Source: a bacterium (GTDB lineage: Bacteria; DUMJ01). From it: a DNA stretch of 33,690 bases. Of the stretch, positions 4,585-7,957 are shown one piece after another. The stretch spans positions 1-33,690 of the forward strand of contig JAOACC010000158.1 in the NCBI GenBank assembly GCA_026418035.1, given 5' to 3'. The position numbers and the translations under genes are program-made. The notes beneath the pieces are model-generated. The model had not been told where the DNA came from. It saw only the letters and a list, made by a program, of their open reading frames with translations, and did not search any database. The first letter of the stretch is position 1; the number at the start of each line of letters is the position of its first letter.

Positions 4585-5109
4585 CTATGAATATATAACT
4601 ATTCCTACTATTCCAGCCAGTATAAGCACTAAAATTGGATCCAATTTCTTGGTTCTTAAGATAATAAAGCTTATTATAGCTATAATCAACCCTTTTATTT
4701 CAGTAATCCCTCCACCTTTTACTAGAGAATAAGCAGCAGAAGCAATTAAAGCAACAACTGCAGGTCTCAATCCCTTTATAACATTATTAACCCATATATT
4801 TGTCTCAAATTTCTTTAGAAACCTGACCACAATAAGAACAAGCATTACTGGAGGAAGACATACTGAGATGGTAGCGATAGCAGAACCTATAACTCCACCA
4901 ACTTTGTAACCAACAAAAGTAGCAGCATTAATAGCTATGGGTCCTGGGGTAAGCTGTGAGATAGTAACTACCTCCAAAAACTCTTTGTGAGTAAGCCAGT
5001 GTAAGTTATTAACTACTTCCTTCTCTATAAGAGGCAATATCGCATATCCCCCACCAAACGCAAAGAGTCCTATTTGAGCAAAGGCTAAAAAGAGTCTAAA
5101 TAAAATCAT
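4585..5109 (-). CDS. chrA: Chromate transporter, short subunit 2 (ChrA family)
   Basis: A 174-residue membrane protein opening with RLFLAFAQIGLFAFGGGYA and carrying PLIEKEVV and QLTPGPIAINAATFVGYKVGG, the standard motifs of a half-length ChrA. Short ChrA proteins work as pairs with opposite topology, and here the partner gene lies directly upstream with a 4-bp ATGA overlap. Family members export chromate or a related oxyanion in exchange for protons; in strict anaerobes the real substrate is often unknown. Placement in a run with a glycosidase and dipeptide epimerase is unexpected and gives no clear clue. Confidence 0.85.
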   Translation of the reverse strand: MILFRLFLAFAQIGLFAFGGGYAILPLIEKEVVNNLHWLTHKEFLEVVTISQLTPGPIAINAATFVGYKVGGVIGSAIATISVCLPPVMLVLIVVRFLKKFETNIWVNNVIKGLRPAVVALIASAAYSLVKGGGITEIKGLIIAIISFIILRTKKLDPILVLILAGIVGIVIYS

Positions 5110-5669
5110 CTCTTCTCTCCTAGAATTATCCCCAAGATTGCTGATATCAATATCGCCAATATAGGATGGATCTTAAAATATACAAGTAAAAGGAATAAAA
5201 CCATAGTTATTATGAGTTCCCTATATCTTTTCAAAGCACTCTTACCTATATCTATTACTGCACTTGCAATAAGAGCAACTATAGCAGGATTTGCCCCTTT
5301 AAAGAAATTCTGAACCAGCTTAAGATCTCTGAATCTCAAGAAGAACATAGCTATAATTAATATCGAGATAAAAGAGGGAAGTATAGCCCCAGCCAAAGCC
5401 ATTAATGAACCAAGCTTACCACAGAGTTTATGCCCAACATAGGTAGCAATATTTATTGCGATTGGTCCAGGAAGGCTTTGAGATACAGCTATTCCATCTA
5501 TAAAGTCTTCCGAAGAAATCCAACCCTTCTTTTCCACCACTTCATTCTTTATAAGAGGGAGCATTGCATAACCTCCCCCCCAAGTAAATGCACCTATCTT
5601 AAAAAATACAGTAAAGATAGAAATAAGTAAATCAAGCTTTGACTTTACATTATCTCTTACATCCATCAC
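5106..5669 (-). CDS. chrA: Chromate transporter, short subunit 1 (ChrA family)
   Basis: A 187-residue membrane protein with the same motif order as its neighbour: FFKIGAFTWGGGYAMLPLI, then WISSEDFIDGIAVSQSLPGPIAINIATYVG. It has about five hydrophobic segments and a Lys/Arg-rich end. It is the first gene of the minus-strand run that continues through the second subunit, the glycosidase and the epimerase. The start codon pair MMD is preceded by AGAGGTTGTG. TATAAT-like sequences lie between 5690 and 5730 but no single promoter stands out. Confidence 0.85.
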   Translation of the reverse strand: MMDVRDNVKSKLDLLISIFTVFFKIGAFTWGGGYAMLPLIKNEVVEKKGWISSEDFIDGIAVSQSLPGPIAINIATYVGHKLCGKLGSLMALAGAILPSFISILIIAMFFLRFRDLKLVQNFFKGANPAIVALIASAVIDIGKSALKRYRELIITMVLFLLLVYFKIHPILAILISAILGIILGEKR

Positions 5670-6825: not shown

Positions 6826-7194
6826 CTACTTTACTATTCTAGCACCAAACTCAATAGCTCCTAAAGATAGCAAAAGGTTAAGAATTATATTATTAAAAGC
6901 CAAGAGATATTTTCCAGATTTAAAATAACTAATAGTCTCTACCCCAAAGGTAGAGAATGTAGTAAATGCCCCCAAAAAGCCAACCATAATAATAGTTTTA
7001 GTTATATCAGGTATATCTAGCTTTTTACTAAATAGTGTTAGAAATGCTCCTGCCAAAAAACAGCCAGTTACATTTACTACAAGACTCACAAATGGGAATT
7101 TCCCTCCAAAATTCAACTTAATCCACTGAGACACTACATACCTCATTACTGCACCCAAAAAACCTCCGATACCAACTGCGACTAGTTCGCTCAA
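6826..7194 (-). CDS. crcB: Fluoride channel Fluc (CrcB)
   Basis: A 122-residue protein with four hydrophobic segments, typical of the family, which forms dual-topology dimers in the inner membrane that let fluoride leave the cell. The signature motifs are GGFLGAVMRY near 10-19, VNVTGCFLAG near 41-50 (pore Asn) and GFLGAFTTFSTF near 73-84 (the Phe box). The gene sits 12 bases after a DUF6062-type gene and both follow a fluoride riboswitch at 7895-7942, so its expression should rise when fluoride is present. Confidence 0.95.
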   Translation of the reverse strand: MSELVAVGIGGFLGAVMRYVVSQWIKLNFGGKFPFVSLVVNVTGCFLAGAFLTLFSKKLDIPDITKTIIMVGFLGAFTTFSTFGVETISYFKSGKYLLAFNNIILNLLLSLGAIEFGARIVK

Positions 7195-7206: not shown

Positions 7207-7836
7207 CTATTTTAGTCTTAAGATTTCAATAGCCCTTATCCAGCTATCTGCCTCTATTCCAATTGGTTCTTCTCTAAATCTATAATCTTGTTTTCTTATG
7301 AATTCTGAAAGTTGACTCGAAAGCTCTTTAAGTTTTAAAGCAGTTAACTCTAAAAAGATTTCGCTAATCTCTCTATCTTTAGAAAGTGTCAAGACTTTAG
7401 AAAGATGAAACATACAAAGTCCCTCAGAATCTCTATAAATCTGATAAAAATTACGCTCTTTTATGTTCTTTACTAATTCTTCTAATATTCGCCCTTCTAC
7501 ATCTTCTAACACCTCACATATAAGACACTTCCTATTGGAAGATAATGTTCCTTGTGTATTTAGAGTCTTATAATATGCGTCCATAAGGTCTTTATATATG
7601 ATAGAGATACCTAAAGCATATCCTCTATATCCAAATCTGAGTAATTTTTTAGAATGTTCTTTACAGAATCCACCAGAATCTATTAACCTTCCCCTAAGAT
7701 TAGTATCGTTTACACTTTCATATAAAAGATTATCTATATATTTATCAGTGTACGTCTCTAATAAAAGACATACTGGACAACCTCTCTCTTTCATAGCATC
7801 TAACAATTCATAATAGGTATTGCTCTTTATATTCAT
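7207..7836 (-). CDS. DUF6062-type protein with two CX2C...CX2H modules
   Basis: A 209-residue soluble protein of unknown function. It shows an internal duplication: Cys20/Cys23 (CPVC) with Cys58/His61 (CKEH), then Cys104/Cys107 (CLIC) with Cys141/His144 (CMFH), with 33-34 residues between each half. This pattern suggests two zinc (or other metal) sites of three Cys and one His. The rest is mainly helical and charged. It is the first gene after the fluoride riboswitch and lies 12 bases before crcB, so it is made together with the fluoride channel. A role in fluoride stress is an inference from this position only. The family name is from my recollection of similar proteins and is moderately sure. 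Confidence 0.7.
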   Translation of the reverse strand: MNIKSNTYYELLDAMKERGCPVCLLLETYTDKYIDNLLYESVNDTNLRGRLIDSGGFCKEHSKKLLRFGYRGYALGISIIYKDLMDAYYKTLNTQGTLSSNRKCLICEVLEDVEGRILEELVKNIKERNFYQIYRDSEGLCMFHLSKVLTLSKDREISEIFLELTALKLKELSSQLSEFIRKQDYRFREEPIGIEADSWIRAIEILRLK

Positions 7837-7864
7837 ACTTACCCCTCTATTAATGTTAATTTAA

Positions 7865-7903
7865 TAAAAAAAGCTCCTACAGAACAGATGTCCTGTAGGA
7901 GCT
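7865..7903 (-). terminator. Riboswitch expression-platform terminator
   Basis: A perfect 11-bp stem (arms 7872-7882 and 7893-7903) is followed on the minus strand by TTTTTT. The 3' end of the aptamer (AGCUCCUAC) lies inside the first arm as transcribed, so ligand-stabilised pseudoknot pairing would prevent terminator formation: an ON switch. Confidence 0.9.
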
Positions 7904-7942
7904 ATCAGCCCATTTAAGGCAATTAGGCGAGCTCCATCGCCT
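7895..7942 (-). promoter_or_regulatory. Fluoride riboswitch (crcB motif) aptamer
   Basis: As RNA on the minus strand the element starts AGGCGAUGGAGCUCGCCU: a 6-bp P1 stem (AGGCGA with UCGCCU) whose loop GGAGCU can pair perfectly with AGCUCC near the 3' end, forming the known pseudoknot. Between them lie UAAUUGCC, a loop, and GGGCUGAU before the final GCUCCUAC. Order and key conserved bases (GGCGAUG, CUGAU, CUCCUAC-type end) match the fluoride aptamer consensus. It directly precedes the DUF6062-type gene and crcB. Confidence 0.93.
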
Positions 7943-7948
7943 AATCAT

Positions 7949-7957
7949 ATAATACCA
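7949..7957 (-). promoter_or_regulatory. Extended -10 promoter of the fluoride riboswitch transcript
   Basis: The minus strand reads TGGTATTAT, an extended -10 box. A start about seven bases downstream (near 7942) would place the first nucleotide at the 5' edge of the aptamer, as expected. No clear -35 box is present. Confidence 0.5.

Follow-up and report, generated by a model that had tools for sequence, protein, structure and literature searches.

Known fluoride-resistance genes code mostly for exporters, for pH-balancing antiporters or for spare copies of the poisoned enzymes. In the excerpts of a study of Enterobacter cloacae FRM (PMC5533749) and of a review (PMC11139923), the operons controlled by the fluoride riboswitch (crcB RNA motif) comprise crcB, uspA and the genes for enolase, phosphoglycerate mutase and pyrophosphatase. 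The same excerpts describe enolase, which is inhibited by fluoride at approximately 80 micromolar, as the classic target of fluoride and as a recurrent member of fluoride-riboswitch operons. The operon analysed here lies on the minus strand of a 33,690-nucleotide stretch of bacterial DNA, the whole of which is referred to as the window. It shares with the E. cloacae FRM-type operons the riboswitch class and the presence of crcB, and the corresponding unit of its Omnitrophota relatives also contains enolase and a phosphoglycerate-mutase-type gene. It differs in its first gene, which codes for a protein of the DUF6062 family, and this family goes unmentioned in the excerpts of PMC5533749 and PMC11139923. 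The riboswitch is already known; the new part is DUF6062 as its recurrent client, together with further candidate fluoride-response genes.

The aptamer (positions 7889–7950, minus strand) matched the RF01734 model over its full length with a score of 46.3 bits (E 5.9e-10), which passes the curated cut-off (gathering score 34), and it was the sole RNA-family match within the window. The custom model R1, built partly from the window sequence itself, scored it at 61.1 bits. In an alignment of 38 fluoride aptamers gathered in this study, 98.7% of the cells in P1, P2 and the long-range pseudoknot were paired, as against 41–57% in register-shifted controls, and 57 double changes were found in the three helices compared with 10 in shuffles. 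The pseudoknot (7898–7935, minus strand; strands 7935–7931 and 7902–7898) was paired in 100% of the cells, and three of its five pairs covary. It is followed by an intrinsic terminator (7872–7903, minus strand) with a 14-bp stem and a run of seven T. The 5′ arm of the terminator overlaps the 3′ strand of the pseudoknot, and the aptamer and the terminator are therefore mutually exclusive. The same layout recurs behind most DUF6062-linked aptamers. A terminator overlapping a pseudoknot strand is the usual transcriptional design of a switch turned on by fluoride. Since the first arm of the terminator holds the CUCC pseudoknot strand, fluoride binding should favour read-through. All three elements had been noticed in a sequence-only reading of this DNA, whose coordinates were off by no more than a few bases. 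A probable extended −10 element, TGGTATTAT (TGG TATTAT; 7949–7957, minus strand), was recognized by eye. It abuts the aptamer and has counterparts, also found by eye, in two sister species and at the riboswitch of a MoxR gene; a strict σ70 scan does not list the candidate at 7957–7949.

On the minus strand, the riboswitch and the terminator are followed by the DUF6062 gene (7207–7836, 209 codons for amino acids) and crcB, encoding a Fluc fluoride channel of 122 aa (6826–7194), which starts 12 nt past the DUF6062 stop codon. The first protein matched PF19538 with 88.5 bits (cut-off 27; E 5.8e-25), and the second matched both PF02537 (E 2.4e-25) and the equivalog model TIGR00494 (92.6 bits, cut-off 80.45). 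These matches bear out the earlier proposal that the first gene behind the switch codes for a DUF6062-type Cys/His protein instead of the channel, and that it stands ahead of crcB. A DUF5317 gene lies upstream and ends 22 bases before the aptamer. The three species of the genus with sequenced genomes all keep the order riboswitch-DUF6062-crcB. In the metagenome assembly of one sister species (G001), crcB is broken by a frameshift (L035:5640–6004), which is either a sequencing error or a sign of decay. Downstream of the crcB region, the window also carries two adjacent genes of the chromate-transporter family (4585–5669).

DUF6062 is a Pfam family without known function, to which the window protein and its relatives belong by score. 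The riboswitch-linked members include divergent ones which a six-frame Pfam search misses (G014, L166). No named NCBIfam model was found for the window protein. Eight metal-type residues (C20, C23, C58, H61 and C104, C107, C141, H144) were invariant in 29 diverse sequences. The two halves of the protein were recognized as homologous with a probability of 97.1%, compared with at most 4% for shuffled columns, and the protein is thus a duplicated CxxC...CxxH unit. The ligand pattern suggests that it binds two structural zinc ions. The AlphaFold2 model is all-helical and confident (pLDDT 91.8, pTM 0.85); a Foldseek search of the PDB with this model returned nothing below E 1, and a profile search of the PDB sequences gave chance-level matches only. 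The protein is predicted to be soluble, and nothing points to a membrane protein. DUF6062 was named in none of the papers searched; the gene lists of the 2012 discovery paper lay outside that search and may mention it.

A lack of excess association of DUF6062 genes with fluoride riboswitches or crcB elsewhere had been set beforehand as the finding that would mark the link as accidental. The survey of 386 unselected genomes, 23 with DUF6062 and 81 with a fluoride riboswitch, revealed a strong excess. Outside the genus of the window, a riboswitch occurred anywhere in the genome in nine of 20 DUF6062 genomes and in 69 of 363 others (Fisher p 0.009). It was located upstream of DUF6062, on the same strand and within about 2.5 kb, in six of the 20 (G521, G530, G534, G567, G585 and G693), compared with approximately 0.002 genomes expected from the riboswitch density and an approximate mean genome size. 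DUF5317, the control, whose gene flanks the window switch opposite DUF6062, had an adjoining fluoride riboswitch in none of 15 genomes outside the genus under the same rule. Viewed from the riboswitch side, DUF6062 was among the first five genes behind nine of the 86 fluoride riboswitches outside the genus (one of these nine, in G757, being a weak, motif-poor match) and was the first gene behind five. It was found within five genes as often as recognized CrcB, in a count whose other labels come from genes at DUF6062 loci and amount to partial annotation.

When named genomes were scanned with an alignment of DUF6062, 14 loci were obtained. At six of them, two in the window genus, three in Omnitrophota and one in Elusimicrobia, a fluoride riboswitch above the curated threshold was found nearby; a seventh, in the Bacillota Ch109, scores below that threshold. 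A relaxed custom model added one riboswitch, at L043, and detected no hidden one at the remaining switch-less loci. In the cultured Thermomicrobium roseum DSM 5159, the DUF6062 gene TRD_RS12225 is preceded, at a distance of about 40 bases, by a riboswitch-like sequence that does not reach the curated threshold (29.0 bits, E 8.7e-5). Mapping the riboswitch label onto the DUF6062 tree takes eight changes, at least four of which are forced by supported branches; the deep branches are poorly supported, so that the gains are not exactly countable. The link thus extends beyond the genus: Omnitrophota, Elusimicrobia, a Bacillota and Thermomicrobium supply independent cases.

The recurrence of DUF6062 behind the riboswitch in many lineages, beside crcB and enolase, indicates that the protein is very probably part of fluoride survival. 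Its earlier designation as a candidate component of the fluoride response gains support from this recurrent placement, and to judge by position it very probably acts in that response. Export is not its function. We consider it probable, with some reserve, that fluoride induces DUF6062 as a cytoplasmic member of a recurring set of response genes, and that it likely protects fluoride-sensitive metabolism. Upon binding of Mg-fluoride, the pseudoknot would hold the CUCC strand that otherwise starts the terminator; with the terminator blocked, DUF6062 and CrcB would be made together. Fluoride would in this way turn on DUF6062 along with whatever further fluoride gene a given lineage employs. CrcB would let fluoride out, and DUF6062, with its two putative structural zinc ions, would help the cell to tolerate the remaining fluoride without moving it. 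Protection or maintenance of fluoride-sensitive metabolism or proteins is its most likely function. An intracellular role of this kind appears to be the most economical reading, the likely action being the shielding or upkeep of a fluoride-sensitive enzyme or complex, with enolase and its pathway, lower glycolysis, as the best single candidate target.

Approximately half of the DUF6062 genes are not located behind a riboswitch even according to the relaxed model, among them those of Caldisericales, Lachnospiraceae, Endomicrobia, Lentisphaerae and Nitrospinota. The family is therefore not exclusively a fluoride protein; its biochemical role is probably broader, and its activity may be a general one borrowed for fluoride. 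It is quite conceivable, although we lean somewhat against it, that DUF6062 is a general zinc-type stress or protein-quality factor which fluoride regulons have recruited repeatedly, together with MoxR-DUF58, HEAT-repeat and dynamin-like proteins, and which acts on proteostasis, metal homeostasis or membrane damage without a fluoride-specific target. The housekeeping-like settings of the members outside riboswitch control agree with such a factor, and so do the riboswitch partners. In T. roseum (L231, NC_011961.1, 656284–666727), the riboswitch-like sequence is followed by the order DUF6062-HEAT-MoxR-DUF58-DUF4129, and in G585 the order is riboswitch-DUF6062-MoxR-DUF58. DUF6062 thus heads MoxR-DUF58-DUF4129/transglutaminase-type AAA+ clusters behind fluoride riboswitches in both genomes, and the searched literature, as far as its excerpts reach, contained no link of these clusters to fluoride. 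On the other hand, the excess of DUF6062 at fluoride riboswitches is extreme, and enolase and crcB recur as its neighbours, which argues against a purely general factor.

In the window genus, the genes of the T. roseum cluster or their relatives are split over separate fluoride riboswitches. Besides the one before DUF6062-crcB, the genome of the window has a second in front of a MoxR ATPase-DUF58 pair (L033, contig C124:10802–10864), and so has the sister species G001 (L031). A third riboswitch in G001 (L032, G001:C8:38964–39026) precedes a zinc-ribbon/HEAT-repeat protein gene, followed by an MFS transporter gene. That a single sensor governs the same parts in arrangements that differ from lineage to lineage speaks strongly for their belonging to one response. 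DUF6062 matched a plasmid in a single case, the T. roseum megaplasmid, and the phage collection gave one weak, unannotated match. These single matches provide no evidence for a plasmid- or phage-borne resistance gene.

A narrower proposal, that under fluoride DUF6062 protects or activates enolase, or lower glycolysis, as its partner, seems rather unlikely to us. It draws on four Omnitrophota (G059, G060, G061 and G290) with the order riboswitch-(phosphoglycerate-mutase-type gene)-DUF6062-(transporter)-enolase; one of the Omnitrophota has the mutase-type gene in first place, and in G290, enolase begins just past DUF6062 and remnants of the mutase gene are left in the leader. It is also in agreement with a pyk-eno-pfk-DUF6062 glycolytic operon in G599, which has no riboswitch there, and with an Elusimicrobia locus (L042:251–712) where a second, truncated DUF6062 copy behind its own riboswitch runs into the enolase start. 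The sequence of the latter has the appearance of a decayed DUF6062-enolase unit. However, enolase is not adjacent to DUF6062 in the window genus, in T. roseum or in G534, G567, G585 and G693; its adjacency is mostly limited to Omnitrophota and Elusimicrobia and may merely reflect two fluoride genes on one switch.

A bolder idea, to which we give a similarly low rating, is that DUF6062 represents a new fold acting directly against fluoride in cells; it could, for instance, shield enolase or other Mg-phosphate enzymes from Mg-fluoride. It would act as a second defence behind export, within an unrecognized damage module with HEAT, MoxR-DUF58 and dynamin-like proteins.

DUF6062 might also assist an exporter in its assembly or gating, or deliver fluoride to CrcB, an antiporter or an MFS protein, but this is improbable. 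In the window genus the gene does stand immediately ahead of crcB, as it does in an unrelated family, where G534 has the order riboswitch-DUF6062-crcB-DUF190. G693 and G014 have the order DUF6062-dynamin-like GTPase-DUF190-DUF190-crcB. Altogether, two unrelated lineages place crcB right behind DUF6062, and a third has both genes within one cluster. Genes for Na+/H+ antiporters or MFS proteins adjoin DUF6062 in G062, G165, G521 and G693; in G521, which has the order riboswitch-dynamin-HEAT-DUF6062, the antiporter gene is found further on. Nevertheless, the transporter neighbours are of several unrelated types, and many loci, such as those of T. roseum and L038, have none at all. To our knowledge, the Fluc channels described so far work alone. 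Since the partners vary among exporter, antiporter, enolase, AAA+, HEAT and dynamin-like GTPase genes, a dedicated partner of a single transporter is unlikely. Finally, that the switch serves crcB, its standard client and the second gene of the window operon, with DUF6062 merely lying in between, can hardly be credited: the DUF6062-riboswitch arrangement recurs in many lineages, whether crcB is present or not, and accidental placement was rejected statistically by the 386-genome survey and its DUF5317 control.

That a soluble protein without a known fold is coupled in many lineages to a fluoride sensor suggests a protective step within the cell which has gone unexplored, and it provides a first functional lead for the uncharacterized family DUF6062. 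The presence of a member in the cultured and genome-sequenced thermophile T. roseum DSM 5159 makes this step testable. The finding also bears on the engineering of bacteria for the breakdown or production of organofluorine compounds, in which released fluoride is limiting according to the excerpt of a review (PMC11139923).

Several further observations concern the wider set of riboswitch clients. Proteins of about 500 aa with tandem DUF6062-type units are encoded near fluoride riboswitches at two loci (L109:6094–7593 and L167:2124–3695). The genome of the Bacillota Ch109 (G066; L220, L221 and L222) contains approximately ten fluoride riboswitches, some strong and some weak, the majority of which lie on two contigs, as well as two DUF6062-dynamin pairs, enolase and antiporters; the whole looks like a fluoride-resistance island. 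At L156 (G519:C1:3457700–3476000), six fluoride riboswitch matches, some of them partial, crowd into about 26 kb on a single chromosome. No paper in the searched literature contains both "fluoride riboswitch" and "dynamin". Of the 86 surveyed fluoride riboswitches, 16 have a dynamin-like GTPase gene within the next five genes, and in ten cases it is the very first (the loci include L153, L165, L169, L175, L192, L196, L200, L217, L104 and L178); these GTPases may constitute an unreported major class of fluoride riboswitch client.
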